A stretch of DNA of 30,754 nucleotides from a virus. Of this stretch, positions 8,958-27,294 are shown piece after piece; position 1 is the stretch's first letter, and each line of letters opens with the position of its first letter. The stretch lies in the IMG/VR virus record IMGVR_UViG_3300009158_000140, positions 1 to 30,754 of that record, one strand, 5' to 3'. The position numbers and the translations under genes were made by a program. The notes below the pieces were generated by a model, which did not search any database, had not been told where the DNA came from, and worked only from the letters and a program-made list of their open reading frames with translations.

Positions 8958-11900
8958 ATGGCTAATACAGTTACAAATATAAGTTATGCCAATACTTTTG
9001 GTGAATGGGTTGCAGCCACCGATGTTTTGATTGGAGAAAACAATACATTAGGTAAAGGTAATTATACAAAAGATTCAGGTACATTGACTCTTAGTGAATC
9101 GACATTAGTGGCTTTAACATCTTTGGGTGATATTGTTGCTAACAAACAATTAAGAAGTGAAGGTACTGGTTCATCCGCAACTGTTCAAAATAATTTAACT
9201 GTTGGTGGTCAATTATACTTTACAAATTCAGTACTTGGTATAACACATACTGGCCAAGCAAACATGAATGGTCTTGTTGTTGTACAAGGACCAAATATAG
9301 GTATTACTGTTGCAAATAGTGCTTATATTGGTGGCAATACAACAATCAGATACAATACAGTAACTGATAAATTACAAGCCAATACAAGTGTAACAACATC
9401 AAATGTTTCATCTGATACTATTACCAATTCTGGTACTGTTTACACCAATCAAGTAAGAGCAAATTCTTTAATAACATCCACAACTATTAATAACTCCGGT
9501 TTTGTATATTCGGATACTGTAGTTGCAAATACAAGTGTAACAACAGTAACTGTAGTTGCAAATACAAGTGTAACAACACCAACTTTATCATCTACAACTA
9601 TTAATAACTCCGGTACATTATCTTCTGCGACTATTAATAATTCCGGTACGGTTCGTACAAATATATTGACGGCAAATATAAGTGCAAGCGTGCCAACATT
9701 ATCCGTTGCAACATTAATTGATGGTAATACAGCGTCAGGATTTTTGAACAATTTATATGCTCAAAATATGACGGTGAGTGGTAATCTTGTACAAACTGGT
9801 GCCACAATATATGCAGCAAATACATTTGTTTTAAGTCAAAATGTTGCATCAGCCATTAATAGTTATTATAATGTAGACCGTGGTCCTGGTGAAACACAGG
9901 CAAGTTTCCGTTGGACAGAAATATCAAAAAATTGGCAAACAAGAAACGTAACATCAGGTACATACTACCGTGTATTAACTGATGAGTATCTAAGTGATTC
10001 AGTAAATTCAACAAGTTCAACATCTGTTGCAACATCCAATGTTGCAAATTATCTATACAATCAAATTCTTGCCACAAAAACAATATTTACAGGCACCTCA
10101 GGTGCACCATTTACTTCAAACACATTAACATTCTCAAGTAATAATGGTGTGACAATTGTTCCTGTTGGTTCAAATACTGTTGCAATCAGTACATCACAAG
10201 ATTTGAGAACAACTGCAACTCCAACATTCTCTACATTAACATTATCAACCACACCATTAGGAACAGGTTCAGGTGGTTCTGGTCAAACATCAGCATCAGG
10301 TGCATTTAATACGTTCATTACTGGTGCAGCAGGAACAGGTTCATCAGGACAGGTACTGACAACTGGTGGCGCCGGTAGTTATTATTGGGCGGCCGGTGGT
10401 GGTGGCGGTGGTTCTGTACAACCAGGAACTACAATCAGCTCTTCTAGATTGACTTATTCGGGTGACAATGCAAACACAGTATTTGCCACACCAGTATTCA
10501 ATCAAACAAATCAACTTAGAGCTTACATCAATGGTGTAAGACAGTTTGATTCTGAATATTCTTCAAATTCTGCAGCGAATACAATTACATTTTCAACACC
10601 ACCATCAGTTGGTGATTCAGTATTAATTGAAGTTGATGGATATATTTTAAATCCATACTATGCAAACAATATTCCTGTAACACCAACTGGTACAATTACA
10701 GGTAATACAATTCAAGATGCAATTGGTACACTAGAATCAGCAAAAGCACCATTGACTGGTGCAACATTTACTGGTGTTGTATCTGGTTTAACATATGATG
10801 CCAATACAAGTAATACATCATTTGCAACTACTCAATTTGTTAAGAACGTTTTAAATCAACCAGCGGCAACAAGTGGTTCGACATATGCAATTGATACATC
10901 AGGTAATGCTGCAACAGTAACAAACGGTGTATATACAACTGGTACTCAAACAATTGGTGGTACAAAAACATTCAGTTCAACGATTGTTGGTAGTATTAAT
11001 GGTAATGCTGCAACAGTAACAACAATTCCTAGTTTATCTGGTGATGTAACTTCTTCTGGGAATGCTCTTACACTTGTAAATTCAGGCACCAATACGGGTA
11101 ACTTTGGTTCTGGTACAACTGTTCCTATTATTACTGTAGATTCTAAAGGTAGAATTACTAGCGTTTCATCTACATTGATTACTGGTGGTTCTGCTGGTAC
11201 AGGTTCAACTACTTTTGACAGAGTTACTACAACAGCGACAGCTGGTCAAACATTAATATCAAGTATCCCACACACTACTGGATTCTTACAAGTTCATTTG
11301 AATGGTATGTTATTACCATCAAATGATTATACTTCAAATTCAAGTAACAGTTCAATTGTCATAACATCACCTTTACGTGCTGGTGACATTGTTGATACAT
11401 TCGCTTATACAACCACAATAGCAAACAATCTATCTCCTGGTACTACTGGTGGTTCTGCTGGTGTGGTGTTGTACCAATCAGCAGCTAACACTACTTCAAA
11501 CACAAGTGTTGGTACATCAGGTTATTTGTTAACAAGTGCTGGTACAGGTCAACCAACATGGACAAATCCTGCTACATTGTCAGTTAATATTGCCAATACA
11601 GCAACATCAATTACAGGTACAACAGCTAACTCCCAATTCTTCTCAATTGGTGTTGGTACTGCTGCTGATTCTGCCAACACTGGTAGTGTACGTGCAACTG
11701 GTACAATCACCGCAGGTTATTCTGATGACCAATTGAAAACAAAGCTTGGTAACATTGATAATGCTTTGAATAAATTAATGACATTGAATGGTTTCTATTA
11801 TGAACCAAGTCAAATAGCATTAGATTTAGGTTACACACCATCAAAACAAGTTGGTGTTTCTGCACAAGAGGTACAAAAAGTATTGCCTGAAGTTGTGGTA

Positions 11901-12020
11901 CCTGCACCTATTGACGATAAATATTTAACAGTACAATACGACAGAATGATTCCTTTATTAATTGAAGCGATTAAAGAATTAAAAGAAGAAGTTGAAGTAT
12001 TAAAAGGACAAATTAAATGA
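8958..12020 (+). CDS. Long tail fibre with C-terminal S74 intramolecular chaperone (cassette copy 1)
   Basis: The protein has 1020 residues. The N-terminus (MANTVTNISYANTFGEWVAATDVLI) matches the attachment domain I know from cyanophage-type fibres. Residues about 140-245 are short beta repeats (VANTSVTT, STTINNSG). Residues about 495-568 and 750-818 are two copies of a fibre domain with a (L/V)NG...Y...GD.V..Y core. One ITVDSKGRITSVS motif lies near residue 727. Residues about 918-1020 are a Peptidase_S74 (endosialidase chaperone) domain: SDDQLK with Ser922 and Lys927 in the spacing of the self-cleavage dyad, GVSAQEVQKVLPEVV, then a C-terminal helix ending EVEVLKGQIK. In this family the domain trimerises the fibre and is cleaved off. 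The stop overlaps the next start (ATGA), so the glycine-rich protein is translationally coupled. The start has AAGG nearby. Confidence 0.92.
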   Translation: MANTVTNISYANTFGEWVAATDVLIGENNTLGKGNYTKDSGTLTLSESTLVALTSLGDIVANKQLRSEGTGSSATVQNNLTVGGQLYFTNSVLGITHTGQANMNGLVVVQGPNIGITVANSAYIGGNTTIRYNTVTDKLQANTSVTTSNVSSDTITNSGTVYTNQVRANSLITSTTINNSGFVYSDTVVANTSVTTVTVVANTSVTTPTLSSTTINNSGTLSSATINNSGTVRTNILTANISASVPTLSVATLIDGNTASGFLNNLYAQNMTVSGNLVQTGATIYAANTFVLSQNVASAINSYYNVDRGPGETQASFRWTEISKNWQTRNVTSGTYYRVLTDEYLSDSVNSTSSTSVATSNVANYLYNQILATKTIFTGTSGAPFTSNTLTFSSNNGVTIVPVGSNTVAISTSQDLRTTATPTFSTLTLSTTPLGTGSGGSGQTSASGAFNTFITGAAGTGSSGQVLTTGGAGSYYWAAGGGGGGSVQPGTTISSSRLTYSGDNANTVFATPVFNQTNQLRAYINGVRQFDSEYSSNSAANTITFSTPPSVGDSVLIEVDGYILNPYYANNIPVTPTGTITGNTIQDAIGTLESAKAPLTGATFTGVVSGLTYDANTSNTSFATTQFVKNVLNQPAATSGSTYAIDTSGNAATVTNGVYTTGTQTIGGTKTFSSTIVGSINGNAATVTTIPSLSGDVTSSGNALTLVNSGTNTGNFGSGTTVPIITVDSKGRITSVSSTLITGGSAGTGSTTFDRVTTTATAGQTLISSIPHTTGFLQVHLNGMLLPSNDYTSNSSNSSIVITSPLRAGDIVDTFAYTTTIANNLSPGTTGGSAGVVLYQSAANTTSNTSVGTSGYLLTSAGTGQPTWTNPATLSVNIANTATSITGTTANSQFFSIGVGTAADSANTGSVRATGTITAGYSDDQLKTKLGNIDNALNKLMTLNGFYYEPSQIALDLGYTPSKQVGVSAQEVQKVLPEVVVPAPIDDKYLTVQYDRMIPLLIEAIKELKEEVEVLKGQIK
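9516..9578 (+). repeat. 33-bp tandem repeat in the long S74 fibre
   Basis: Two 30-base identical blocks (9516-9545 and 9549-9578) encode TVVANTSVTT twice at an 11-residue period. Related copies lie nearby (ANTSVTT at about 9379), as do three TINNSG units. The shaft here seems to grow by slippage or unequal crossover. Confidence 0.8.
11532..11569 (+). repeat. 38-bp direct repeat in fibre shaft, copy 1
   Basis: This block encodes TSAGTGQPTWTN just before the S74 domain of the 1020-residue fibre. The identical 38 bases occur at 13724-13761 in the 417-residue fibre, within a longer region of high similarity (about 11090-11700 against 13290-13860). Confidence 0.8.
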
Positions 12021-12021
12021 C
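11988..12021 (+). repeat. 34-bp direct repeat at cassette junction, copy 1
   Basis: A 34-base block covers the last codons of the fibre (EVEVLKGQIK), the stop and the overlapping start of the tip gene. An identical block lies at 14159-14192. It marks the boundary at which the two S74 domains become the same again. Confidence 0.85.
12002..12008 (+). promoter_or_regulatory. Ribosome-binding site inside fibre C-terminus, cassette 1
   Basis: AAAAGGA lies eight bases before the ATG at 12017 and is encoded by the LKG codons of the conserved EVEVLKGQIK end of the S74 fibre. With the ATGA overlap this implies tight translational coupling of fibre and tip protein. Confidence 0.7.
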
Positions 12022-12736
12022 TATAATTAGGAATTTTGCAAATACAGCGGCATATATATCTGCAAATGGACAGTACCCAGCAGCTAATGTTACTGGTCTA
12101 GCAACAGTAGCAACAACTGGTTCAGCTAGTGATATTACTACTGGTACATTACCTAGTTCTGTTTACTCCGGACCATCAGCACCAGTAAGAACGATTTATA
12201 CAAGTCCAGCAACATGGACTAAACCAGGAACAGTTAAAGCAGTTCAAGTGACCTTATGTGCAGGAGGTGGAGGCGCAGGATATACTGGCCATCCAACGTG
12301 GGCAGCAACTGGCGGTGCCGGTGGTGCCGGAGGTATTGGTCAATTTACTGCACCTTCAATTCCGGGTCCAATTGCGGTTACTGTTGGTGCTGGAGGTGCG
12401 GCCGTATCGACTGGCGGTTTTGGTGTATCAGGTAATGCAGGAGGAACTTCTAGTTTTGGATCATTAATTTCTGCTTCCGGTGGAGGTGCCGGTACAGCAA
12501 CTCCGGGTCCTAGTAGTCCAGGAGCTTCCGGTGGAACAATAACTACTAGTTCTACAGTATGGGGCGGTTCTGGCCAGTGCAGCAACGGCGGCAATGGCAC
12601 CAACGGCGGAAATAGTTTCAGTCAATGGGGTATAGGTGGCACTCCTTCGATAGGTGCGTCAGGTTATGGAGCAGGCGCCGGTCCCAACGGCGCAGCAGGA
12701 AGAGACGGTTTTGTAATCGTAGAGGAGTTTTATTAA
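12017..12736 (+). CDS. Glycine-rich fibre-tip/adhesin protein (cassette copy 1)
   Basis: The protein has 239 residues. Residues 1-50 (FANTAAYISANGQYPAANV, then GLATVATTGSASDITTGTLP) are shared with the copy-2 protein at 14188. A WTKPGTVKAVQVTLCAGGGG strand follows and opens a low-complexity glycine-rich region to the end (GGAGGAGGIG, GGNGTNGGNSF), closing with DGFVIVEEFY. This layout resembles the glycine-rich domains of phage tip proteins; in T-even-type gp38 adhesins such stretches form polyglycine-II helices carrying variable loops. Adhesin function is therefore plausible but inferred. It starts inside the stop of the S74 fibre gene, with AAAAGGA at 12002-12008 as ribosome-binding site. 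Its C-terminal codons supply the site for the next gene. Confidence 0.8.
   Translation: MTIIRNFANTAAYISANGQYPAANVTGLATVATTGSASDITTGTLPSSVYSGPSAPVRTIYTSPATWTKPGTVKAVQVTLCAGGGGAGYTGHPTWAATGGAGGAGGIGQFTAPSIPGPIAVTVGAGGAAVSTGGFGVSGNAGGTSSFGSLISASGGGAGTATPGPSSPGASGGTITTSSTVWGGSGQCSNGGNGTNGGNSFSQWGIGGTPSIGASGYGAGAGPNGAAGRDGFVIVEEFY
12723..12727 (+). promoter_or_regulatory. Ribosome-binding site within VEEFY codons, cassette 1
   Basis: AGGAG lies in the GTAGAGGAG codons for VEE at the end of the glycine-rich protein, 10 bases before the ATG of the 61-residue gene. Confidence 0.7.
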
Positions 12737-12937: not shown

Positions 12938-14191
12938 ATGACAACAAAAGTCACAGGATCAATATTAGCAAACACAGCAGTAACGGCGGGTTCGTATGGT
13001 GGGTCTGATGTATTCCCAGTTATTACAGTTGATGCACAAGGTAGATTGATATCAGCATCCAACACATCATTGCCATCTACTGGTGTTTCTGCTACTACTT
13101 ATGGTGGTGGTGTTAGTTCTGCAAACTTTCAACTTCCAATTATTACAGTAGACACTAAAGGTAGAATTACAGCCGCATCTAATGTAACAGTAACAAGTAC
13201 AGCCATCTATGCGAACACAGGCCAATTAGTGGCCAACACTGCTACTGGTGTTGTGCAAATTGGTCTTGCTACATCTGGTGCCAATCCAGGTAACTATGGG
13301 TCTGGTACCACAACACCTGTTATTACAGTAGATTCTCTTGGTAGAATTACCAGTGTGTCATCAGTATTGATTACTGGTGGTTCTGCTGGTACAGGTTCAA
13401 CCACATTTAATAGAACCACTGCTACTGCTACTGCTGGTCAGACATTGTTCTCAAGTATTCCACATACTGTTGGTTACTTACAAGTTCACGTTAACGGTGT
13501 TCTAATGACACCAAATGACTATACTGCCAATGCAAGTAATTCTTCCGTTGTGTTAACACAAGCGTGTTCTGTTGGTGACCAAGTTGATGTATTTGCCTAC
13601 ACAACTACAATAGCAAACAATTTATCTCCTGGTACTACTGGTGGTTCTGCTGGTACTGTATTGTACCAATCAGCAGCCAATACAACCAGTAATACAATCG
13701 TTGGCACAGCAGGTTATCTATTGACAAGTGCTGGTACAGGTCAACCAACATGGACAAATCCAGTTAGTTTAAATTTCTCAGCAGCAAATTCACAATTCTA
13801 TTCTATCGGTGTGGGTACTGCTGCAACTGGTGTGTCAGGTGAAATTCGTGCCGCAAATAACATTACTGCTTATTATTCTTCTGATATTAAATTCAAAGAA
13901 AATGTACAAGATATACCTAATGCATTACAAAAAGTTGATGCAATCGGTGGCAAATTGTTTGATTGGACTGACGAATATATACAACAACATGGCGGTGAAG
14001 ATGGTTACTTTGTTCAGAAGGCCGACTTTGGTGTGATTGCTCAAGATGTTCAATCAGTATTCCCAATTGCAACGAGAACAAGACCAGATGGTTCATTAGC
14101 AGTTGACTATGAAAAACTTTGTGCTTTAGCTTTTGCAGCTATCAAAGAATTAAAATCTGAAGTTGAAGTATTAAAAGGACAAATTAAATGA
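12938..14191 (+). CDS. Short tail fibre with a divergent S74 chaperone (cassette copy 2)
   Basis: The protein has 417 residues. Three repeats with the core P(V/I)ITVDxxGR(I/L)xxAS lie at residues 20-41, 55-81 and about 119-142. From about residue 122 to 305 it closely parallels residues about 720-915 of the 1020-residue fibre (LQVHVNGVL, TTTIANNLSPGTTGGSAG, YLLTSAGTGQPTWTNP). Residues 312-417 are a second Peptidase_S74 domain: Ser315-Asp316 with Lys320 at +5, GVIAQDVQSVFP, DYEKL, ending EVEVLKGQIK. This S74 domain is a different subtype from that of copy 1, except for the last ten residues. It lacks the MANTVTN-type attachment head, so how it joins the virion is unclear. AAGGA precedes the start, and its ATGA overlaps the next gene. 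Confidence 0.9.
   Translation: MTTKVTGSILANTAVTAGSYGGSDVFPVITVDAQGRLISASNTSLPSTGVSATTYGGGVSSANFQLPIITVDTKGRITAASNVTVTSTAIYANTGQLVANTATGVVQIGLATSGANPGNYGSGTTTPVITVDSLGRITSVSSVLITGGSAGTGSTTFNRTTATATAGQTLFSSIPHTVGYLQVHVNGVLMTPNDYTANASNSSVVLTQACSVGDQVDVFAYTTTIANNLSPGTTGGSAGTVLYQSAANTTSNTIVGTAGYLLTSAGTGQPTWTNPVSLNFSAANSQFYSIGVGTAATGVSGEIRAANNITAYYSSDIKFKENVQDIPNALQKVDAIGGKLFDWTDEYIQQHGGEDGYFVQKADFGVIAQDVQSVFPIATRTRPDGSLAVDYEKLCALAFAAIKELKSEVEVLKGQIK
13724..13761 (+). repeat. 38-bp direct repeat in fibre shaft, copy 2
   Basis: Identical to 11532-11569; it lies upstream of the divergent S74 domain of the copy-2 fibre. Confidence 0.8.
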
Positions 14192-14192
14192 C
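14159..14192 (+). repeat. 34-bp direct repeat at cassette junction, copy 2
   Basis: Identical to 11988-12021; it joins the copy-2 S74 fibre to its glycine-rich partner. Confidence 0.85.
14173..14179 (+). promoter_or_regulatory. Ribosome-binding site inside fibre C-terminus, cassette 2
   Basis: The same AAAAGGA site in the same codons occurs before the ATG at 14188, in a block that is identical in DNA to that of cassette 1. Confidence 0.7.
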
Positions 14193-15009
14193 GTTATCAA
14201 GAAATCTTTCAACACTAGGACAAGCAGTAAATGCTTCTGGTAATATACCATCAGCAAACGTAAGTGGTCTAGCAACAGTAGCAACAAGTGGTTCAGCTAC
14301 TGATATCACTACTGGTACTTTACCTAGTTCAGTTTATACTGCTGGTGCTACTGGTGTTCCTACATTAAACGCATATACAAGTTCAGGAACATGGACCAAA
14401 AGTGCTGGATTGAAAGCAATTAAAGTAACTGTTGTTGGTGGTGGTGGAAATGGACAAAATCCTGGTCCAGCAACTGCGGGTACTTCAGGTGCTGGCGGAG
14501 GTGGCGGTGCTGGTGGCACTTCAATTAAAATTTATCCAGCACCATCATTACCAGGACCTCAACCATATACAGTTGGTGGTGCAGGCGGCACATCTTCTTT
14601 TGGTGTTGCACCAATAACAGTAATTACAGCAACTGGTGGTAGCAGCGGTAGTGGTGGTACTATCGGTGGTGCTGGTGGTTCAGGAGGATCTGGATCTTCT
14701 GGTGACTTAAATGTTTCTGGAGGTATGGGTACAAATGGACAAATTATAACTGGAACAGCACCAGGCACAACGGGTGCAAACTACGGCGGCGGTGGTTCGG
14801 GAGGAAATTCTTTTTTGGGTGGTGGTGGTGCTGGTGCCATTCAAAATCCCGGCGCAAGTTCTTTTGGTGTTTCTGGAAACCCAGGAAAAGGTTATGGTGG
14901 CGGCGGTGGTGGCGCAGCATCTTCTACTTTTCCAGGATACGCGCCACCTGGAGGAATTAGTGCCGGAACAGGAGCATCTGGTATAGTAATTGTAGAGGAG
15001 TTTTATTGA
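14188..15009 (+). CDS. Glycine-rich fibre-tip/adhesin protein (cassette copy 2)
   Basis: The protein has 273 residues and is a paralogue of the protein at 12017. It shares the SGNIPSANVSGLATVAT, DITTGTLPSSVY and WTKSAGLKAIKVTVVGGGG segments and the C-terminal VIVEEFY. The middle is glycine-rich (AGGGGGAGGTS, GGAGGSGGSG, YGGGGGGAASS) and differs from copy 1 in length and loop sequence, as expected for a recognition surface. The N-terminal 60 residues probably form the docking part, since they are the conserved portion. Receptor binding is inferred from glycine-rich architecture and from its place after an S74 fibre. The start overlaps the fibre stop, and AAAAGGA at 14173-14179 is the likely ribosome-binding site. 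Confidence 0.8.
   Translation: MTLSRNLSTLGQAVNASGNIPSANVSGLATVATSGSATDITTGTLPSSVYTAGATGVPTLNAYTSSGTWTKSAGLKAIKVTVVGGGGNGQNPGPATAGTSGAGGGGGAGGTSIKIYPAPSLPGPQPYTVGGAGGTSSFGVAPITVITATGGSSGSGGTIGGAGGSGGSGSSGDLNVSGGMGTNGQIITGTAPGTTGANYGGGGSGGNSFLGGGGAGAIQNPGASSFGVSGNPGKGYGGGGGGAASSTFPGYAPPGGISAGTGASGIVIVEEFY
14996..15000 (+). promoter_or_regulatory. Ribosome-binding site within VEEFY codons, cassette 2
   Basis: AGGAG occurs in the same VEE codons, eight bases before the ATG at 15009. It supports that ATG rather than the TTG at 15006 as the start. Confidence 0.7.
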
Positions 15010-15194: not shown

Positions 15195-15200
15195 TTGCCT

Positions 15201-15208
15201 ACTAAATA
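15201..15208 (+). promoter_or_regulatory. Weak late-promoter-like box, ACTAAATA
   Basis: ACTAAATA lies in the 40-base gap before the 113-residue gene. It has the AAATA core but differs from TATAAATA at two positions. The gap is one of the longest in the window and the next gene lacks a strong ribosome-binding site, so a transcription start here is possible but weakly supported. Confidence 0.3.
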
Positions 15209-15234
15209 CCAAATAACTCATAAGAAAAACTACC

Positions 15235-15576
15235 ATGGCAGCTGGGTACCAAGAATTATTTTTAGAACAAGGCACAGACTTCACCACATCAATCACTTTA
15301 GATGATGTGAATGGTGACCCATATAACCTTACTGGCTTCACTGCAAAAAGCCAGATGAGAAAGTCTTATTATTCTACCAATCCTACTGCTCAATTTACAA
15401 TTACAATTAATACACCTACATCTGGTGTACTGAATATATCTCTGCCATCAGCAAACACAGCCAATATTGCTGCAGGTCGTTATGTCTATGATGTTGCTAT
15501 CAAAGATTCCGCAAACACAATTACAAGAGTTTTAGAAGGAATAGTGAACGTATTACCCCGTGTAACAGTTTTTTAA
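15235..15576 (+). CDS. Small Ig-like/BppU-N-like structural protein
   Basis: The protein has 113 residues. The order QGTDFTTSITLDDVNGDPYN, LTGFTAKSQMRKSYYS, FTITINTPTSGVLNISLP, then AGRYVYDVAIKD and ITRVLEGIVNVLPRVT is a compact all-beta pattern. It is common in phage structural regions and resembles the N-terminal domain of BppU-type upper baseplate proteins. I read it as a beta-sandwich that may cap or attach the very long fibre encoded nine bases downstream; this is inference. Upstream is a 40-base gap, one of the few true gaps in the window. It holds a CTAAATA box but no strong Shine-Dalgarno. Confidence 0.65.
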   Translation: MAAGYQELFLEQGTDFTTSITLDDVNGDPYNLTGFTAKSQMRKSYYSTNPTAQFTITINTPTSGVLNISLPSANTANIAAGRYVYDVAIKDSANTITRVLEGIVNVLPRVTVF

Positions 15577-15585
15577 AGGGCCAAC

Positions 15586-18500
15586 ATGGCAACAACAGTT
15601 ACACCACCATCAGTCATCAAAGTACAAGTTGGTAGTCAGCAAAGCGGAGCTGTCTCCACAATAAATCAAGCACGTTCAGCAATCAAAGACTCCTCAGATT
15701 TCTTTCTGGGTACACCACAAGAAGGTGATGTATTAGTCTATCATACTTCCAATGGCAATTTTACATTAGTAACACTTGATGCAACTGCAGCAATTGTATT
15801 AGCACAAGCAGCTTTTAATCAAGCCAATGTGGCCACAACAATTGGTACATCTTCTTACGTACAAGCCAATACCGCCAATCTAGTTGCCATTTCTTCTTAT
15901 GCTCAGGCTAATACAGCAACCTTAATTGCTCAAGCGGCTTATGCACAAGCAAACAGTGGTGCAGGAAGTGCTTTCACGCAAGCGGCTTTTAATCAGGCCA
16001 ATACTGCTAATCTGGTAGCCATATCATCTTACGTACAAGCCAATACGGCCAATCTATTAGCAATATCTGCCTATGCACAGGCTAATATAACAACATTAAA
16101 TGCTCAAGCAGCTTATGGTCAGGCTAATACTGCTATATTAAATGCTCAAGCAGCTTATGTACAAGCCAACACCGCCAATCTAGTAGCAATATCAGCATAT
16201 GCTCAAGCCAATACAGCCAATTTAACAGCAATAGCCGCTTATGTACAAGCCAATACAGCCAATCTGTTAGCAATATCTGCCTATGCACAGGCTAATATAA
16301 CAACATTAAATGCACAGGCTGCTTATACACAAGCTAACACAGCAACTTTAAATGCTCAGGCAGCCTATACACAAGCCAATACGACAACATTAAATGCACA
16401 AGCTGCCTATACACAAGCCAATACTGCCAATCTAACAGCAATATCGGCATATGCTCAAGCCAATGCCGCTACATTAATTGGCCAAGCAGCTTTTGCTAGA
16501 GCTAACTCAGAACCTATTGGTACTGCTGCATATGCTCAGGTAAACGTAACTCAAATTTTTGCACAGTCAGCCTACGATACTGCTAACAATAAATTCAATT
16601 CTACTGGTGGTACAATATCTGGCAATGTAGTAATACAAAATAATTTAACCGTCAACGGCAATTTAAATATTCTTGGTACTGCCACAACAATCAATACGGC
16701 TTCATTAACATTAACTGATACTTTGATATATTTGGGTGCCAATAATTACACCTCAGACGTAGTTGATATTGGTATTATTGGTCATTATAATGATGGTACA
16801 AGTGCTCATACTGGTATCTTTAGAGATCCAGTTCGTAAAGAATGGATTTTCTTTAAAGGTTATGTACCTGAAGTTCAATCCAATAACGTAATTAATATTG
16901 CTGATCCTAGTTTTGCTTATGCTAACGTATATGCAAGTAGTTTCAAAGGGAATTTGGTTGGTTTTGTAACATTCTCTGATGGTACAACACAAACAACTGC
17001 TGCATCAGGCACCGGTATAGACCAGACAGCAAGAACACAAGCCAATACCGCCAATCTGGTAGCAATATCAGCATATGCACAGGCCAATACAGCAACATTA
17101 AATGCTCAAGCTGCTTACACACAGGCAAACACAACAACATTAAATGCACAAGCGGCATATAGTCAAGCTAACTCTGCAATTACATTAGGTCAATCAGCAT
17201 ACGGTCAAGCAAATTTGGCAACCAGCATTGGTACATCAGCATACTTACAGGCTAATGCCACAACATTAAATGCTCAGGCGGCATATACACAGGCTAATAA
17301 TGCAATTACATTAGGCCAATCCGCTTATGCTAGAGCCAACTCCGAAATTATTGGTACGGCAGCTTACACCCAAGCAAACACAGCCAATTTAACCGCAATA
17401 TCGGCATATGCTCAAGCAAACACCGCAACAAATATTGGTCAATCAGCTTATGCAACAACCAACTCTGCAATTACATTAGGTCAGTCTGCATATGCTCAGG
17501 CAAATACCGCAACTAATATTGGTACATCAGCATATGCAGCCACAAATTCATCAATTACTCTTGGTCAATCTGCCTATAGTAAAGCTAATGCTGCATTTGA
17601 TACAGCCAATTTAAAATTCAATATATCTGGTGGTACAATCACAGGAAACACAACAATCAATGCTAACTTGATTGTATCTGGCGCAAATGTTTCATTAGGT
17701 AATGTTGGTAATGTACACATCTATGGTGGTAATACTGGCCAAGTATTGTCAACAGACAATTTTGGTAACTTAACTTTCATTGATTTACCAACAACAAATA
17801 CAGTTACATATGTTGCACAAACCTTAACATTAACAAATGGTGTATATGTTTCTGGTTCAGTAACTGATGTACAAGTATTAAATGATGGTAACTATTATGC
17901 AATCACAGACGGCAGCAACACAGGTCCTGCATGGATTATTACTTGTACATTCACCGGTGTAACATCATTCAATAGAGTTGTTTCTAATATTGATTATACA
18001 TTAGCCTCTGGTCACACTGTATATTTCCAAGTTTATAATTACCTAACAACTGCATGGGATAATATTGGTTCATATTCTGGTGCATCTGGTTATACACAAT
18101 ACGCACTTGAAGTATTAGATTATGCATCTTATATTTCTGGTGGTACAGTTCAGGCTCGTTTGTACCATAGCAATACTGGTAATGTATCTCATGTAACACA
18201 CTTAGATTACTTTGCATTAGAAAAATCTTCACAAGGCGCACAAGGTCCAAGAGGTGCAACTGGCGCAACAGGCGCTACTGGTGCAACAGGCAATGGTGTT
18301 GCATCTGGTGGTACCACAGGCCAAGTATTGATTAAGAATAGTGCCACAAATTATGATACTGTTTGGTCTGATAATTTAACTTATGCTTATAATACTGCTA
18401 ATTTGGCATTCAATCAAGCCAATACTACACAAATATTTGCACAAGCTGCTTTTGATAAAGCGAATACTGGTGGTTCTGGTTCATCATCTGGTTATCTACC

Positions 18501-20016
18501 AAATGCAGTTATCTTTGCTAATACTACCGGTTATTTAAGTAATGTAAGTTCGTTTCAATTCTATTCATCAAATAATACAATACAAACAACCAGTTTAACA
18601 TTAACCAGTGGTGCTGGTGGCCAGATTACTTTTGCAGATGGTACAACACAAACAACTGCGGCATCTGGTGCGGCAACCGACCAAACAGCAAGAAACTTGG
18701 CCAATACGGCAAACAATAATGCACAATCGGCATTCGACCAAGCCAATTCTGCAATTACATTAGGACAATCAGCTTACGCACAAGCAAATACCGCAACTAA
18801 TATTGGTACATCAGCATATGCAACCACAAATTCTGCAATTACATTAGGTCAGTCAGCGTATGCTCAAGCAAATTTGGCAACTAACATTGGTACATCTGCG
18901 TACTTACAGGCTAATACAGCAACAAATATTGGCACATCCGCTTACGCAACCACAAATTCTGCGATTACATTAGGTCAATCAGCTTATGCTAGAGCCAACT
19001 CCGAAATTATTGGTACAGCAGCTTATGCACAGGCAAATACTGCTAACTTAACTGCAATATCAGCATATGCACAGGCTAATACTGCAACAAATATAGGTAC
19101 ATCAGCATATGCAACCACCAATTCAGCAATTACATTAGGACAATCAGCTTACTCTCAAGCAAATAGTGCAGTTAGTGTTGGTCAATCAGGATATACTCAG
19201 GCTAATAATGCAATCAGTCTTGGCCAATCTGCCTATGGCCAAGCAAATAGTGCGATTACATTAGGTCAATCAGCTTATGCTAGAGCCAATTCCGAAATTA
19301 TTGGTACAGCAGCTTACACTCAAGCTAATACAGCCAACTTAACTGCGATATCGGCATATGCTCAAGCCAATACTGCAAATCTAACAGCAATATCAGCTTA
19401 TGTTCAAGCCAATACAGCTAACTTAACTGCAATATCAGCTTATGCACAGGCTAATACAGCAACATTAAATGCTCAAGCAGCTTATGGTCAAGCAAATACT
19501 GCAAATCTAACAGCAATATCAGCTTACATACAAGCCAACACAGCCAATTTGACTGCGATATCAGCTTATGCTCAGGCAAATACTACTCAAATATTTGCTC
19601 AAGCGGCATTCAATCAGGCGAATACAGGTGGCGGCGGTGGTACATCAAATAGTTTCTCTACTATTCTTGTTTCTGGACAATCAAACGTAATAGCAAATAC
19701 ACCTACAGGAAGATTAACGTTTGTTGCTGGTTCTGGTATGACAATTACCACAGCACAAACAAGTAATACAATAACATTTGAGTCAACTGGTGGTTTTTCT
19801 GGTGGTACAATTGCAAACCAGTTAATAATTGCGAATTCAACACCATCAATATCAAATGGTACTGGTGCATTGATTGTTACTGGTGGTGTTGGTGTAACAG
19901 GCAATATATATATTGGCGCCAGCAGTGTTTTAGGTTTTGCCAACAATGCTAGCAACAGTGTGGTCTATCAAGTATATAATGCGGCCACAAATAGTTTAGA
20001 CACAATTTTTGGTTAA
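15586..20016 (+). CDS. Very long repeat-built tail fibre
   Basis: The protein has 1476 residues. An N-terminal head (about 1-68, with GTPQEGDVLVYHTSNGNFTL) is followed by three blocks of degenerate 14-residue repeats such as AISAYAQANTANLT and NAQAAYTQANTATL: about residues 71-337 (19 units), 481-678 (14 units) and 1034-1348 (23 units). Between them lie globular modules. The first (about 338-475) contains LTVNGNLNILGTATT and HTGIFRDPVRKEW, a known phage fibre motif. The second (about 680-882) is beta-rich. A run of seven G-X-Y triplets sits at about 884-904. The C-terminus (1349-1476) has SGLIV-like 'GALIVTGGVGVTGNIYIG'. Fourteen residues equal two heptads, so the blocks may be coiled-coil stalks (inference). 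No S74 domain is present. AAAGGG precedes the start. Confidence 0.85.
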   Translation: MATTVTPPSVIKVQVGSQQSGAVSTINQARSAIKDSSDFFLGTPQEGDVLVYHTSNGNFTLVTLDATAAIVLAQAAFNQANVATTIGTSSYVQANTANLVAISSYAQANTATLIAQAAYAQANSGAGSAFTQAAFNQANTANLVAISSYVQANTANLLAISAYAQANITTLNAQAAYGQANTAILNAQAAYVQANTANLVAISAYAQANTANLTAIAAYVQANTANLLAISAYAQANITTLNAQAAYTQANTATLNAQAAYTQANTTTLNAQAAYTQANTANLTAISAYAQANAATLIGQAAFARANSEPIGTAAYAQVNVTQIFAQSAYDTANNKFNSTGGTISGNVVIQNNLTVNGNLNILGTATTINTASLTLTDTLIYLGANNYTSDVVDIGIIGHYNDGTSAHTGIFRDPVRKEWIFFKGYVPEVQSNNVINIADPSFAYANVYASSFKGNLVGFVTFSDGTTQTTAASGTGIDQTARTQANTANLVAISAYAQANTATLNAQAAYTQANTTTLNAQAAYSQANSAITLGQSAYGQANLATSIGTSAYLQANATTLNAQAAYTQANNAITLGQSAYARANSEIIGTAAYTQANTANLTAISAYAQANTATNIGQSAYATTNSAITLGQSAYAQANTATNIGTSAYAATNSSITLGQSAYSKANAAFDTANLKFNISGGTITGNTTINANLIVSGANVSLGNVGNVHIYGGNTGQVLSTDNFGNLTFIDLPTTNTVTYVAQTLTLTNGVYVSGSVTDVQVLNDGNYYAITDGSNTGPAWIITCTFTGVTSFNRVVSNIDYTLASGHTVYFQVYNYLTTAWDNIGSYSGASGYTQYALEVLDYASYISGGTVQARLYHSNTGNVSHVTHLDYFALEKSSQGAQGPRGATGATGATGATGNGVASGGTTGQVLIKNSATNYDTVWSDNLTYAYNTANLAFNQANTTQIFAQAAFDKANTGGSGSSSGYLPNAVIFANTTGYLSNVSSFQFYSSNNTIQTTSLTLTSGAGGQITFADGTTQTTAASGAATDQTARNLANTANNNAQSAFDQANSAITLGQSAYAQANTATNIGTSAYATTNSAITLGQSAYAQANLATNIGTSAYLQANTATNIGTSAYATTNSAITLGQSAYARANSEIIGTAAYAQANTANLTAISAYAQANTATNIGTSAYATTNSAITLGQSAYSQANSAVSVGQSGYTQANNAISLGQSAYGQANSAITLGQSAYARANSEIIGTAAYTQANTANLTAISAYAQANTANLTAISAYVQANTANLTAISAYAQANTATLNAQAAYGQANTANLTAISAYIQANTANLTAISAYAQANTTQIFAQAAFNQANTGGGGGTSNSFSTILVSGQSNVIANTPTGRLTFVAGSGMTITTAQTSNTITFESTGGFSGGTIANQLIIANSTPSISNGTGALIVTGGVGVTGNIYIGASSVLGFANNASNSVVYQVYNAATNSLDTIFG
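15796..16596 (+). repeat. 42-bp in-frame tandem repeats, block A of the long fibre
   Basis: About 19 degenerate 42-base units encode 14-residue repeats such as VAISAYAQANTANL and NAQAAYTQANTATL. The tyrosine or phenylalanine and the QAN triplet are nearly invariant. One unit is expanded (NSGAGSA) and one shortened near the block end (ARANSEPIGTAAY). Confidence 0.9.
17026..17619 (+). repeat. 42-bp in-frame tandem repeats, block B of the long fibre
   Basis: About 14 units occur, mixing NAQAAYTQANTTTL with a second type, LGQSAYGQANLATS and IGTSAYLQANATTL. It includes one LGQSAYARANSEI unit of 13 residues, the same short landmark unit seen in the other blocks. Confidence 0.9.
18235..18297 (+). 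repeat. Short collagen-like G-X-Y segment
   Basis: Seven consecutive glycine-first triplets occur (GAQ, GPR, GAT four times, GNG). They lie within the long fibre between a beta-rich module and the next linker. This is typical of short collagen-like joints in phage fibres, which are trimeric. Confidence 0.8.
18685..19629 (+). repeat. 42-bp in-frame tandem repeats, block C of the long fibre
   Basis: About 23 units occur. The first half alternates LGQSAYAQANTATN and IGTSAYATTNSAIT, and the second half is mostly TAISAYAQANTANL. The 13-residue landmark LGQSAYARANSEI occurs twice, followed each time by IGTAAY. The block ends at a glycine-rich linker. Confidence 0.9.
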
Positions 20017-20226: not shown

Positions 20227-23200
20227 ATGGCAGCTAGATATTGGGTTGGTGGTTCAGGTACATGGGACTCTACAACTACTACAAACTGGAGTATTTCTTC
20301 GGGTGGTGCTGGTGGAGCTTCTGCGCCTACCACTTCCGATAATGCTGTTTTTGATGCAAACTCAGGTACTTCTGCAACAGTAACTGTTACTGCTACGGCT
20401 ACTTCTTCTTATACTTCTGTTAACAAATCTGACCTAACTCTTTCTCTGAGTGGATCACCTACACTTACAACTCAATCTTATTTAACATTAACTTCAGGTA
20501 CTATCACATTAAACAATAATACTTTAACAATATATTCACTTTTTTCTCCAGATGGTGCCGCTAGAACCATAAATTTTGGTACAGGTAATATTACTTGTAT
20601 TGGTAATAATAGTACTATGGTTGATGCTGGATCAGGAGCCAGTCTCACTATTACAGGAACACCAACATTCAATGCAACTTATTCAGGGTCAGTTGGAACA
20701 AGGACTTTCTTTTCACCGATTGGATTTAAATATAGTCTAAACGTTTCCGCTGGTTCTGATATAATTAATATTTCACCTAGTGGCACAAACTATAAGAATG
20801 ATGTAAACCTTACCGGATTCACAGGCTCGTTAGCTACAACAACAAACCCTTTAACATTGTACGGAAATCTAACCTTAGGTTCTGGTATGACTGCGAGTGG
20901 TTATACTGGTACCGTGACTTTTGCGGCTGCCTCAGGCACACAAACAATAACTTCCAATGGTGTTACAGTTAATTTTCCCATAGTTGCAAGTGGATCAGGA
21001 ACATTTACAATATCTGGTGCTCTCACATCAAGTTCTACATATACATCCAGTGGAACTAAGTCAAGTGATTTTGGATACACTACTGCCACATTCAGTTCAG
21101 TTACACTTGGAGCTACCAGCGCCACTGTGGGTTTTGGCAGTGTTGGATTGGTGTTAACAGGAAGTGGTACTTGTTTTTCTGAAACTGTTTCCAGAACTTC
21201 ATCTTCTTACTATACAACATCAGTGATATCTGCTACTTCATCTAGTCCAAAAACCATGTCTTTTTATCCAACAAATAGTTATGTTGGCCTCAATCAAGGT
21301 GGTACTGGAGCATTGACATTGACAACCAGCACAGGCGCCGGAGATATTAATTTGTCCGGCACCACACTTAAAAATTCTGTACAACCTGCAACTATATCAA
21401 TTACTGGTGGATTGACGATCCGGGGCATTGGTACATTGCAACTCAATGGCACCGCAGGAAACTTAGTAACATTGGGCAGCACAAATACAACACCAGTGAC
21501 ACTTGAATCATATGATGTGGGTGTTCAGACCGGTATATATTGTTCAGTGAGTTACATTACAGGATCAAATGCCGCAGCACTGGGTGGCACAGGTGTGTTG
21601 TGGCGTTTTTTAAATAGCACCAATGGCGGCAACAACACCAATTTGACGTTTGGTAATACGTATTATTGGATTGGTGGTTCTGGTACATGGGATGCTACAG
21701 CTAATACAAACTGGAGTTTAACCTCAGGTGGTTCTGGTGGTGCTGGTGTACCTACACAAAATGATGATGTGGTGTTTGATTCAAGTAGTAATACTGCAAC
21801 TTATACAGTTTCTGGACTTTTTGGTTATTGTTTTAATTTGACTGCGAATGGACCAGCTTCTGGTACAGTAACACTTTCAACAACTTCATTTGTGTATGGA
21901 AACATAACATTACCTGCAACGGGTGTAACAAGTTTTAGCAATCCGGTTCTTAATGGTGTAAGTGGAACAACTCAAACCTTAATAACAAATGATGTTGGTA
22001 TTATTCAGCTTCAAACCGGTGAATCTAATGTTTTATTGAGTGGTTCTTTGACCGCAAGTACCATACTTCTCAGTGGTAGTGGAACTTTTGATACAGCGGG
22101 TTATTCTGTTACAACATCACAACGTATTGATACACAAACATTTACACCAACATTAAATTTAGGTGCATCAACTATTACTGTATCTGGTTATAATAGCACA
22201 TCAACATATACTTTTAGAATTTCTACAGGTTCCACAGTAAACGCCGGTACATCCACAATAAATGTTACAGGTGCAAATACTGGAACTTATTTGCTTCAAT
22301 TTGGCGGCAAAACATTCTATAATGTCACACTTAATAATGGTAATTATAATGGTGTAACTTATAACATAACTGATACTGTTACCAATACATTCAACACATT
22401 TACATATAACGGATCATCAGCGGCACCAAGTTTGAATACGTTGACCTTGAGTGGAAATATCACCACGACAACTTTGAATTTAAATACCACTGGAACATAT
22501 AACAATAGACTATTTGTAAAATCAGATACAATAGGAACACAGAGAAGTATATCCATGAGTACTGGCTTAAATGGTGGTAATTGTGATTTTAGAGATATAA
22601 ATTTTACTGGTGCATTAGTGGGAGTTGGAGGATATAATAATGGCGATTGTGGTGGCAACACAGGACTCACAGTTGCTACCAAAACAGTTTACTGGAATCT
22701 AGCAGGCACACAAAACTGGTCAACAACTGGTTGGGCTACAAGTTCTGGTGGAACTCCAGCAGCGGCCAATTTCCCATTGGCACAAGACACAGTGTATTTT
22801 GATAACACAGGTAGTGCTGGCACAGTTACCATTGATAAAAACTGGAACATTGGTACTATTGACATGAGTAATCGTTCATCAGCCATGACCTTGGCTACTG
22901 GTACTACTACACCTACAGTTTATGGTGATAGATGGTATTATGGAACAGGAATTACAACAACTGGCACAGGAACAATAACATTTAGTCGTAGAGATGCATC
23001 GACAGCCATTTATGGCCAAGGCGTAACAATGACGCAAGCTATTATAATAGATTCAATAGGTGGTGGCTTGGGAATAGTATATGGCACTTTAATAACAACA
23101 AATACCATAACATTGACAAGAGGTACATTAGATTTAAATGGCGACTTGGTCGGTGGAAGAAGCTTAACTTGTCAAAGTTTTAGTTCAAGTGGCACTATCA

Positions 23201-25233
23201 CAAGAACTCTTGCATTTGGTACTACTGGACAAATCAATGTGACTGGCAGCAATTCATTAATTTGGGATACCAGTCAATATTACAATTTAACAGTAACAGG
23301 AACACCAACAGTCAACTTTACTTATTCAGGATCCTTCGGCACTAGGGATATTCGTGGACCAAACGATTCTAATGGATCAGGAACCACACCTTTGGTCAAT
23401 GTTAATATTACAGCTGGGTCAGATAGTATTCTCTTAGACAACGGTACATTTGGCAACTATTTAAATGTGAATTTTACAGGATATACCGGATATGCCAATT
23501 TGTTTTATTTGGTTAATGGTATCAATGTATATGGTAATTTCACATTGGGTAGTGGAATGACCACATATAATTCCTTTGGTGAAAAAAGCCTGACGTTCCT
23601 TGGTACATCAGGCACACAAACTTTAACAACCAATGGTGTTACAGTTAATTTTCCAGTTGTACAAAATAATCCAGGAGCTACAGTACAATTAGGAAGTTCA
23701 TTTACTAGCGGCAACACATATACATTAACGGCAGGAACATTAAGTGCAAACAACTATAATGTTACTATTCCATCATTGTCATCATCAGGTTCTACTACTC
23801 GTTCAATTATAATGGGTAGTGAAACATGGACAATTTCTGGTTCTGGTACTGTATGGAATTGTTCCACTCCAACAAACTTATCGGTGACACCAGGTACCAG
23901 CAAAATTTCTATGACTTCGGCTAGTACTAAAACATTTGCTGGTGGTAATAAAACTTGGGGAATATTGAATCAAGGTGGTGCGGGTGCATTAACCATAACA
24001 GGCACTAATACATTTGCTGACATTCAAGCATCTTCTTTGCCATCTACTATTATATTTCCTGCTTCTGTAACAACAACAGTATCTGCATTTACAGCCAAAG
24101 GTACCGCAGGTAACTTATTGACACTACAAAGTTCATCAGCTGGTACACAATTTAATATATCAAAATCTTCTGGTGTTGTGGTGGCTGATTATCTATCTTT
24201 GAAAGATTCTAGTGCAACAGGTGGTGCCCAATGGAGAGCAGGTTTAAACTCAACAATTGTATCTAACGTTTCTGGTTGGTTGTTGTTAGGTCCACCAACA
24301 CAAATTCGTGCTAGTATAAATTCATCTGGTGTTTTGTATGTGCCTAACTTTAACCAATTGGATGAAGTAAGTAAGTCAATTAACTCAGTGGGAAGCAATG
24401 CACTGTATTCAAATCTATTTGATGAAACACAGACATTAACATTTACACCACCAAACCAATCTGTACCGGGAAGTTTGGCTCTTGCTAATACAAAACCGAC
24501 AAGCACAACAAGTAATAATTATATAGAAACAGCAAACTCAACATCTTTTGCAATAAACTCAACACAAGATTTTACAATAGAAGCTTGGGTTAAATTTAAT
24601 TCATATCCTGTAGGATCTGAGACACAAACAATATTTCAAATATGGCCAAGAAGTGGTTCTGGAACATATTTTAATTATACAGGTTGGGCTTTAAATTTGT
24701 ATGGACCAAATTATACAAATCCCCCTCAAATATATTTCATCAATTTTGGCGGTGGTGGTTCTTCAACAGGATTTTCACCAACGTTGAACACTTGGCATCA
24801 TCTTGCATATACTAGACAAAATGGTAATTTATATTATTTTATAAATGGAAGCTTTCAAAATCCAACAATTGTAGATACCAATGCAATAACATCTGCAATA
24901 ATCAAGGTTGGTAAAGATTTAAATTTTGATGGTAACATAACAAATTTACGTTTAACAATAGGTAATGCTCTTTATACATCAAGTTTTACACCATCAACCG
25001 TACCATTAACTAAACAGGCCAACACCGCTTTGTTGTTAACGATGAATAGCAACAACCCATTTGGTGATTCAAGTAATAATATTATATCAGTATCAGCACC
25101 TAATGCCAATGTGGCATTTAGCACAAATTCACCTTTTACATTCATACCAGCAACTGTACCAGTAGCACAAAGAAAAACTGCTGATGGTAAACTTTTAGTA
25201 TCTGGTTATTTTGATGAAACCACACTACAATAA
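20227..25233 (+). CDS. Giant beta-rich surface protein with C-terminal LamG-like domain
   Basis: The protein has 1668 residues. Three 'YW-GG-GTWD..TNWS' units start near residues 5 (YWVGGSGTWD), 480 (YYWIGGSGTWDATANTNWS) and 821 (VYWNLAGTQNWS). Each is followed by an SGG..P..(D)..VxFD stretch and Thr/Ser/Gly-rich beta repeats of the kind seen in beta-helical adhesins. Residues about 140-430 and 1020-1340 are an internal duplication (TYSGSxGTR, NGVTVNFP, NQGGxGALT, GTAGNLxTL). Residues about 1415-1605 look like a LamG/concanavalin-type jelly roll: FTIEAWVKF, WHHLAYTRQNGNLYYFING, KVGKDLNFDGNITNLRLTIG. Such domains commonly bind glycans, so this is a good candidate for a receptor-binding or host-surface-adhering virion protein (inference). 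The ATG is preceded by AGGA at 11 bases. Confidence 0.8.
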   Translation: MAARYWVGGSGTWDSTTTTNWSISSGGAGGASAPTTSDNAVFDANSGTSATVTVTATATSSYTSVNKSDLTLSLSGSPTLTTQSYLTLTSGTITLNNNTLTIYSLFSPDGAARTINFGTGNITCIGNNSTMVDAGSGASLTITGTPTFNATYSGSVGTRTFFSPIGFKYSLNVSAGSDIINISPSGTNYKNDVNLTGFTGSLATTTNPLTLYGNLTLGSGMTASGYTGTVTFAAASGTQTITSNGVTVNFPIVASGSGTFTISGALTSSSTYTSSGTKSSDFGYTTATFSSVTLGATSATVGFGSVGLVLTGSGTCFSETVSRTSSSYYTTSVISATSSSPKTMSFYPTNSYVGLNQGGTGALTLTTSTGAGDINLSGTTLKNSVQPATISITGGLTIRGIGTLQLNGTAGNLVTLGSTNTTPVTLESYDVGVQTGIYCSVSYITGSNAAALGGTGVLWRFLNSTNGGNNTNLTFGNTYYWIGGSGTWDATANTNWSLTSGGSGGAGVPTQNDDVVFDSSSNTATYTVSGLFGYCFNLTANGPASGTVTLSTTSFVYGNITLPATGVTSFSNPVLNGVSGTTQTLITNDVGIIQLQTGESNVLLSGSLTASTILLSGSGTFDTAGYSVTTSQRIDTQTFTPTLNLGASTITVSGYNSTSTYTFRISTGSTVNAGTSTINVTGANTGTYLLQFGGKTFYNVTLNNGNYNGVTYNITDTVTNTFNTFTYNGSSAAPSLNTLTLSGNITTTTLNLNTTGTYNNRLFVKSDTIGTQRSISMSTGLNGGNCDFRDINFTGALVGVGGYNNGDCGGNTGLTVATKTVYWNLAGTQNWSTTGWATSSGGTPAAANFPLAQDTVYFDNTGSAGTVTIDKNWNIGTIDMSNRSSAMTLATGTTTPTVYGDRWYYGTGITTTGTGTITFSRRDASTAIYGQGVTMTQAIIIDSIGGGLGIVYGTLITTNTITLTRGTLDLNGDLVGGRSLTCQSFSSSGTITRTLAFGTTGQINVTGSNSLIWDTSQYYNLTVTGTPTVNFTYSGSFGTRDIRGPNDSNGSGTTPLVNVNITAGSDSILLDNGTFGNYLNVNFTGYTGYANLFYLVNGINVYGNFTLGSGMTTYNSFGEKSLTFLGTSGTQTLTTNGVTVNFPVVQNNPGATVQLGSSFTSGNTYTLTAGTLSANNYNVTIPSLSSSGSTTRSIIMGSETWTISGSGTVWNCSTPTNLSVTPGTSKISMTSASTKTFAGGNKTWGILNQGGAGALTITGTNTFADIQASSLPSTIIFPASVTTTVSAFTAKGTAGNLLTLQSSSAGTQFNISKSSGVVVADYLSLKDSSATGGAQWRAGLNSTIVSNVSGWLLLGPPTQIRASINSSGVLYVPNFNQLDEVSKSINSVGSNALYSNLFDETQTLTFTPPNQSVPGSLALANTKPTSTTSNNYIETANSTSFAINSTQDFTIEAWVKFNSYPVGSETQTIFQIWPRSGSGTYFNYTGWALNLYGPNYTNPPQIYFINFGGGGSSTGFSPTLNTWHHLAYTRQNGNLYYFINGSFQNPTIVDTNAITSAIIKVGKDLNFDGNITNLRLTIGNALYTSSFTPSTVPLTKQANTALLLTMNSNNPFGDSSNNIISVSAPNANVAFSTNSPFTFIPATVPVAQRKTADGKLLVSGYFDETTLQ

Positions 25234-26340: not shown

Positions 26341-27294
26341 ATGTTAGATTTTAACCATGTATTGAACACTCCGGGTGCGGATATCCAAGTATTTTATGGT
26401 GATGTAACCACTACATTATTGCAATGGCAAGTGTGGAGAAAACCACGGGGCGTCAAAATGGTGTATCTATTGGGTGTCGGCGGCGGAGGTTCAGGCGGTA
26501 CAGGCCTTAATACAAGTACCACATCTGGTGGTGGTGCAGGCGGCGTTTCTGGGGCTCAATCATCTGTATTAATTCCCGCAATGTTGATACCTGATACATT
26601 GTATATTCAAGCAGGCGCAGGCGGCCAAGGACCAACTACATCAGGCGCACAGGGTGTTGCTGGACAACCAACATATGTTTCTATAGAACCTAGTACTACA
26701 CTAACACCCAACATGAATTTATTATATTCACTTGGCGGTACTGTTACTTCCGCTACTGTAGCAACTATAACTGCTGGTGGTTTAGCCGGTACTGCACCAA
26801 TTGCTGCAGTGATTGCTAATATGCCTTTAGCTGGCCGAGGATTTTACAGCTTATTGGGAGGTAATGCAGGATCAGCTGGCGGCGCTAGCACAGGTTCACC
26901 AACAGCAGCAACTCCACCGCAAACTGGATTAATGTTAACTGGTGGAACTGGCGGAGGAGGTTGTAACGGCGCTACTGGCTTCAGTGGTGGTGTTATAAGT
27001 GCAGTTACCAATTCATTGGGTCAAGATTTCTATCCAGCATTAGCTGGAGGCGTAGCGGCAGTTACAAGTACACCAGCAGGTTCAGGAACAAGTTTTATTG
27101 CAAAAAACTTTATAATGAATTATGGTGGTACAGGTGGCGGCGGTGCCACGACAACATCTGGTGGTGTTGCTGGTGCCGGTGCACCTGGTGCTCCTGGTTG
27201 TGGCGGCGGTGGTTCTGGTGGCGGAAATACAACTAATACTGCTCTAAAAGCCGGTGACGGTGGTCCAGGTTTTGTTGTTATCATTTCTTTCTGA
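26341..27294 (+). CDS. Glycine-rich surface protein, tandem copy 1
   Basis: The protein has 317 residues. A short conserved head (MLDFNHVLNTPGADIQVFYG, then TTTLLQWQVWRKPRGVKMVY) leads into LLGVGGGGSGGTG and a glycine/alanine-rich body containing IPDTLYIQAGAGG, YVSIEPSTT, NMPLAGRG and SLGQDFYPAL, ending GGPGFVVIISF. The W.KP.G...V..GGGG pattern also occurs in the cassette tip proteins at 12017 and 14188, so all four may share a glycine-rich fold. It starts three bases after the previous stop, with no clear Shine-Dalgarno, suggesting coupled translation. An adhesin or fibre-tip role is inferred from composition and context. Confidence 0.75.
   Translation: MLDFNHVLNTPGADIQVFYGDVTTTLLQWQVWRKPRGVKMVYLLGVGGGGSGGTGLNTSTTSGGGAGGVSGAQSSVLIPAMLIPDTLYIQAGAGGQGPTTSGAQGVAGQPTYVSIEPSTTLTPNMNLLYSLGGTVTSATVATITAGGLAGTAPIAAVIANMPLAGRGFYSLLGGNAGSAGGASTGSPTAATPPQTGLMLTGGTGGGGCNGATGFSGGVISAVTNSLGQDFYPALAGGVAAVTSTPAGSGTSFIAKNFIMNYGGTGGGGATTTSGGVAGAGAPGAPGCGGGGSGGGNTTNTALKAGDGGPGFVVIISF

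Follow-up and report, generated by a model that had tools for sequence, protein, structure and literature searches.

The question raised by this locus is what kind of protein is encoded by a 1476-residue open reading frame that is built largely from short repeats, and how such repeats are folded and multiplied. The frame lies in a 30.75-kb virus record, the whole of which is referred to here as the window, with genes for baseplate, fibre, neck and tail-sheath-stabiliser proteins of the T4-like phage type. We favour, with a probability of roughly 0.6, the reading that it specifies a long tail fibre from a phage of the T4-like type, with an alpha-helical and probably trimeric stalk that is broken at fixed phases. 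As such, the fibre is striking, yet it can be understood as a version of a fibre type already known from phages. Most stalk regions in the fibres of uncultured phages have no annotation, and a repeat grammar made up of heptads, 14-residue units and fixed-phase breaks would serve the annotation and length prediction of such fibres. It would also provide a natural test of how the most strained of insertions is accommodated in coiled coils of three chains.

The fibre gene and its surroundings

The fibre ORF adjoins an LtfC-like gene, from which it is separated by nine bases, and both sit in the baseplate and fibre region of the phage genome with baseplate and neck genes on the flanks. The genes that define this setting are as follows.

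1067-2428, gp8-like gene
8958 and 12938, S74 fibres
15235..15576, plus strand, LtfC-like tail-fibre attachment/assembly protein of 113 aa (PF23926, phrog_3304)
15586..20016, plus strand, tail-fibre ORF of 1476 aa in one uninterrupted frame
29069-30753, neck protein and gp15

The LtfC-like protein matches the LtfC family PF23926 with an E-value of 5.8e-6 and 27.2 bits (cut-off 27), and phrog_3304, 'L-shaped tail fiber protein assembly', with an E-value of 1.5e-25; homologues were found in 138 phage records. The fibre ORF itself has a weak PHROG tail-fibre match (E 0.0025). A similar gene order, namely gp8, a large structural gene, an LtfC-like gene, neck genes and gp15, is found in cyanophage ACG-2014f.

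Some further genes of the window deserve mention. Two tandem cassettes (8958-12736 and 12938-15009) each contain an S74-chaperone fibre gene and a Gly-rich gene (12017-12736 and 14188-15009 respectively) with a 4-base overlap, an arrangement reminiscent of a distal fibre paired with a tip adhesin rich in Gly. A repetitive, beta-rich protein of 1668 aa (20227-25233) carries a lectin domain of the laminin-G/ConA-like kind (PF13385) close to its end and is a candidate adhesin. Directly before the neck genes, at 26341-27294 and 27298-28257, two Gly-rich paralogues (PF21722) are encoded side by side; they are 317 and 319 aa long.

Within the fibre ORF, three stalk blocks split by globular modules were found between two terminal domains.

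15586..15780, plus strand, N-terminal cap domain (residues 1-65), 89% identical to that of relative L011
15811..16590, plus strand, stalk block A (residues 76-335), defined by anchors; helical in the model, pLDDT 33-56
16591..17052, plus strand, globular module 1 (residues 336-489), PHROG structural-protein match (E 8e-8); strands in the model
17071..17610, plus strand, stalk block B (residues 496-675), defined by anchors; helical in the model
17611..18687, plus strand, globular module 2 (residues 676-1034), with one short anchor run at 18385-18468
18235..18297, plus strand, collagen-like stretch GAQGPRGATGATGATGATGNG of 7 Gly-X-Y triplets in globular module 2, a tandem repeat in the sequence
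18730..19635, plus strand, stalk block C (residues 1049-1350), defined by anchors; three modelled helices, pLDDT 36-80
19651..20013, plus strand, C-terminal domain (residues 1356-1476), common to fibres with other stalk types

Family searches gave no confident family for globular module 2 or the C-terminal domain, and the N-terminal 68 aa have no match in Pfam, PHROG or the phage collection. In relatives the N-terminal domain does exist, at the equivalent position, as a protein of its own with about 76 aa (L106, L107, L108, L109, L110, L114 and L170). These stand-alone proteins end in DAGFF or DAGYF, whereas the window copy is fused to the stalk.

An LtfC-family gene beside a fibre gene is shared with the LtfA/LtfC system of T5 and DT57C (PMC10713586). 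In DT57C, N-terminal strands of LtfA insert into a ring of LtfC, beyond which LtfA forms a three-helix coiled coil (PMC10713586). The window fibre likewise has a short N-terminal part directly before a long helical stretch, which in this case is predicted. It differs from the T5/DT57C fibre in its myovirus baseplate and neck context and in its approximately 55 short repeats in three blocks. No sequence match to LtfA was found for the fibre, its N-terminus included. The N-terminal domain and the LtfC-like protein may nonetheless anchor the fibre to the virion together.

Repeat units and the predicted fold of the stalk

A total of 59 anchors were found in the ORF with the motif [AGS][YF]xx[AVT]N, where the invariance of Asn at unit position 6 is by construction as this residue belongs to the search motif. 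Forty seven of the steps between anchors are of 14 residues, four of 13, one of 16 and two of 7, the last occurring at residues 663 and 934. An earlier note on this DNA had described about 55 fourteen-residue repeats in three blocks and in two unit families; the count proved right, and the families are recognisable as AIS/NAQA types and LGQS/IGTS types. None of the Pfam and PHROG models describes this repeat well, and our literature search found no paper on it.

A search of viral contigs yielded 79 loci, most of them with the same anchor motif and different unit endings. Among the distinct anchor steps in the relatives, a step of 14 is the most common (1063), followed by 7 (502), 21 (388) and 28 (124). 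Multiples of 7 account for 2123 of the 2462 distinct steps of up to 35 residues; these counts cover the viral-contig loci and other fetched loci and are descriptive, as the loci are related. Judged from these sequences, the heptad is the basic unit of the repeat family and 14 is one favoured doubling, in agreement with the earlier proposal of two heptads per unit. Fibres of the uncultured phages L004, L007 and L009 have AFxKAN-type heptad repeats, some of them with an Mtd-type N-terminal domain, and share with the window fibre the A-[YF]-x-x-A-N anchor, the spacing in multiples of 7 and the Gly/Ser-rich breaks. The window fibre differs from them in its N-terminal domain and in its almost uncharged units, which end in AIS, NAQA, LGQS or IGTS.

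A helical fold, as the earlier note had suggested, was obtained throughout the blocks in single-chain AlphaFold models of low to moderate confidence. In the model of residues 1-700, made with a 20-sequence alignment, blocks A and B are helical (mean pLDDT 43.9, pTM 0.25). The model of residues 1035-1476 (mean pLDDT 57.0, pTM 0.29) has three helices in block C, at 1036-1134, 1142-1234 and 1241-1347, which are 99, 93 and 107 residues long. The pLDDT reaches 72-80 in the AIS-type part of block C past the last landmark unit, is about 36-67 in most of its LGQS-type part, and lies mostly at 35-65 in the models outside the best part of this block. A Foldseek search returned no match reaching an E-value of 0.001.

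The repeats could alternatively form a left-handed parallel beta-roll of 14-residue layers as in YadA heads, perhaps in the LGQS/IGTS-type stretches only. The heads of YadA, BpaC and CbpF share with the window fibre a 14-residue period, a composition rich in Asn, Thr and Ala and duplicated layers, and the roll of BpaC is rich in Thr/Asn (PMC9543794). The best phmmer matches in the PDB were the beta-roll adhesin 9gh4 (E 6.1e-6) and CbpF 9u93 (E 5e-5), in which the 14-residue steps are aligned unit to unit, but the bias (29.0) exceeds the score (26.9) and the match can therefore be explained by composition. The hydrophobic pattern of the window units is weak, with a moment that is larger at beta-type than at alpha-type angles, and in the LGQS/IGTS units hydrophobic residues alternate and Gly occupies position 12; it is also in the LGQS-type stretches that the helix pLDDT is lower. 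On the other hand, position 8 of the roll is reportedly always Gly (PMC9543794), whereas no column of the window units is all Gly, the best having 20 out of 47. Layers of such a roll should be 14 (or mostly 15) residues long, yet the window itself has steps of 7 and 13, and a roll with 14 residues per layer has no place for the steps of 7 and 21 that occur besides 14 in the relatives, where steps of 28 are found as well. The models also give helix and not strand. Membership in the YadA-like beta-roll family was not accepted on account of the missing invariant Gly and the off-14 steps, and we regard this fold as unlikely for the stalk. Of all the observations, the heptad spacing in the relatives speaks most strongly in favour of a helix rather than the 14-residue roll.

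For the helical stalk, the core register was approached through relatives in which a beta-layer-like lead-in (for example GGFPLAR) precedes the repeats. Position d is taken by the anchor Ala in 14 of the 14 cases accepted as genuine by eye, which form roughly eight groups of related sequences; the rows left out were unrelated sequences, anchors mistaken for lead-ins, and one uncertain case (L195). The GGFPLAR lead-in comes from the N-terminal domain of Mtd (structures 1YU0-1YU4), to which the repeats of L004-type relatives are joined (E 7.5e-16). Read from sequence, the core of the relatives would consist of Ala at a and d with Phe/Tyr at e, and not of the Asn/Tyr layers that the earlier note had considered. 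The AIS units of the window have Leu and Ile at other positions, and no single register accommodates both unit families well. Both this register and the trimeric state of the stalk are what we infer; the Gly-X-Y stretch and the Mtd-type N-terminal domain of the relatives are indirect pointers to a trimeric assembly. Three chains would then wind into coiled-coil rods of about 36-39, 27 and 45 nm at 0.15 nm per residue, with block C rods of about 97 residues between landmarks, while the globular modules and the C-terminal domain may provide receptor contact and trimer closure.

Landmark units that break the repeat phase

The stalk blocks are punctuated by one 16-residue and four 13-residue units. 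The recurrence of the 13-residue unit pointed out earlier holds with four copies, including the related copy in block A.

15937..15984, plus strand, 16-residue unit AYAQANSGAGSAFTQA at residue 118, +2 phase shift; also present in L011
16489..16527, plus strand, landmark 1 in block A, 13-residue unit AFARANSEPIGTA at residue 302, -1 phase shift
17323..17361, plus strand, landmark 2 in block B, 13-residue unit AYARANSEIIGTA at residue 580
18982..19020, plus strand, landmark 3 in block C, 13-residue unit AYARANSEIIGTA at residue 1133
19273..19311, plus strand, landmark 4 in block C, 13-residue unit AYARANSEIIGTA at residue 1230

These units coincide with helix breaks in the models: residues 125-127 at the 16-residue unit, after 306 at landmark 1, 587-591 at landmark 2, 1135-1141 at landmark 3 and 1235-1240 at landmark 4. 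A further break at 264-271 is without explanation. Only 12 charged residues occur in the 763 residues of the three blocks; eight are the Arg and Glu of the landmarks, and the other four lie near block ends.

The 13-residue units have the motif N-x-E-x-x-G-[TS]. In the relatives, the N.E..G motif was found in 15 of the 63 distinct steps of the -1 class, in none of the 2123 in-register steps, and in none of the classes +1, +2 and +3 (Fisher P ~1e-24 for its enrichment in the -1 class, with loci treated as unrelated). Apart from the window, it occurs in L002, L003, L006, L011, L014, L028 and L102, as 13- or 20-residue versions, the latter in L002. Searches with degenerate DNA patterns for the landmark gave 0 and 1 further stretches. 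The -1 shift is not preferred overall, as all off-register classes occur in the relatives (class 5, 75 steps; class 1, 65; class 6, 63; class 3, 59; class 2, 45; class 4, 32), and Gly or Pro is frequent in those classes that were examined.

A stutter is an insertion of 4 residues (+4) into the heptad pattern. The earlier interpretation of the 13-residue units as stutters does not stand, since their shift is -1, which equals +6. In work by Hartmann and colleagues, trimeric coiled coils with 2 or 6 inserted residues were shown to break into beta-layers (PMC4786415). The window has both of these insertions, with +6 in the four 13-residue units and +2 in the 16-residue unit, although the occurrence of all six off-register classes in the relatives makes this pairing suggestive only. 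Since a six-residue insertion forces a beta-layer in trimeric coiled coils, we predict by analogy that the 13-residue units are beta-layers or hinges that break the helices. In the assembled fibre they might re-set the register from one rod to the next.

Known alpha/beta coiled coils with beta-layers are Actinobacillus OMP100, Thermosinus Tcar0761 and the prophage hyaluronidase 2C3F (PMC4786415). They share with the window fibre heptads, the +6 (-1) step and a sequence of a hydrophobic residue or Lys, a small residue and Thr/Ser. In the known layers the first position (beta1) is preferably hydrophobic or Lys and the middle position (beta2) preferably Ala or Val (PMC4786415), often with Lys/Arg next, whereas the window landmarks, known here from sequence and models, have I or K, then Gly in the middle, then Thr/Ser, followed by Ala/Ser.

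The 13-residue units may instead be flexible Gly/Pro hinges within a helical stalk, lacking an ordered beta-layer. This is a sub-case of the favoured reading, so that the confidences of the two overlap, and we hold it to be somewhat short of an even chance. Gly or Pro is present inside the unit, the breaks are unstructured in the models, and the other off-register steps of the relatives are likewise Gly/Ser-rich. A fixed length is not needed by a plain hinge, however, while the specific motif and the constant -1 step recur in seven other loci, and the I or K ahead of G-[TS] resembles the beta1 preference of known beta-layers. Plain hinges remain at least as likely as beta-layers at the landmarks. 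More speculatively, and in our view doubtfully, N-x-E-[PIT]-[IK]-G-[TS] could be a joint of phage fibres that is widespread but has gone unrecognised, a conserved hexad beta-layer at which one uncharged trimeric rod stops and, in fixed phase, the following rod begins. If so, stalks could be cut and recombined at such joints with no loss of register.

Segment duplication and stalk exchange

The earlier note had supposed nearly identical 42-base units, which is contradicted by the DNA. Unit-to-unit DNA identity has a mean of 0.62 (0.65 for adjacent units, 0.93 at most) and is 0.46 at the third codon position, and the longest exact direct repeat is of 47 bp, with its copies 210 bp apart. Higher-order copies were found as approximately two copies of 97 aa in block C, approximately two copies of 70 aa in block A, and about 112 aa common to blocks B and C. 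Codon identity was compared with that in 300 synonymous shuffles that keep the protein. It exceeds the shuffles at offsets of 97 (0.66 versus 0.46), 70 (0.67 versus 0.48), 553 (0.61 versus 0.46) and 42 residues (0.59 versus 0.46), at or above the maximum of the 300 shuffles in each case. At an offset of 14 it equals the null in all three blocks (0.46-0.51), and adjacent units are without codon memory. The higher-order duplication proposed earlier thus has codon-level support at the offsets of 70, 97 and 553, and the contrast with offset 14 implies that copying involved multi-unit segments and that the 14-residue unit as such has an old origin.

Landmarks 2, 3 and 4 lie within the duplicated segments (offsets 553 and 97), which is what would be seen if the 13-residue units were copies of a single accidental codon deletion, spread by duplication and with no structural role. 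The same motif and phase, however, occur in distantly related fibres with other unit types, including the 20-residue version in L002, and we consider such an origin quite improbable.

Comparison of the relatives points to a second process. L011 is 95% identical in DNA over 15200-15769, which comprises the LtfC-like gene and the N-terminus, but beyond this shared part its module and units are different, although its 16- and 13-residue landmarks are the same. In L101 the LtfC-like protein is 95% identical while the fibre is different. At the other end, L180 and L181 have a similar C-terminal domain (78% aa, 83% DNA identity) and similar downstream genes, preceded by a stalk of another type. The C-terminal ending is also present in L005, L182, L183, L189 and L196, and it is found on fibres where these repeats are few or absent. 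Conserved ends combined with differing stalks suggest that the stalk is exchanged between the conserved ends, which bears on how phages adjust the reach of their fibres. We infer that the stalk evolves through duplication of multi-unit segments and whole-stalk exchange rather than through slippage of identical 42-bp units, from which the earlier note had expected rapid changes of fibre length.

No close relative with the complete gene was found, as the contigs of L011, L101 and L180/L181 stop inside it, and the genome-contig search gave no relative. Among cultured phages, Aeromonas phage AVP3 was the only match to the window protein, covering 12% of it. Two further loci, L182 (3-1610) and L183 (4260-8396), were observed to have fibres that resemble this one in their globular modules and end in the same way at the C-terminus, but with a different heptad stalk, of the GVDxSQNxRLxxSNTxxxIxQ type.
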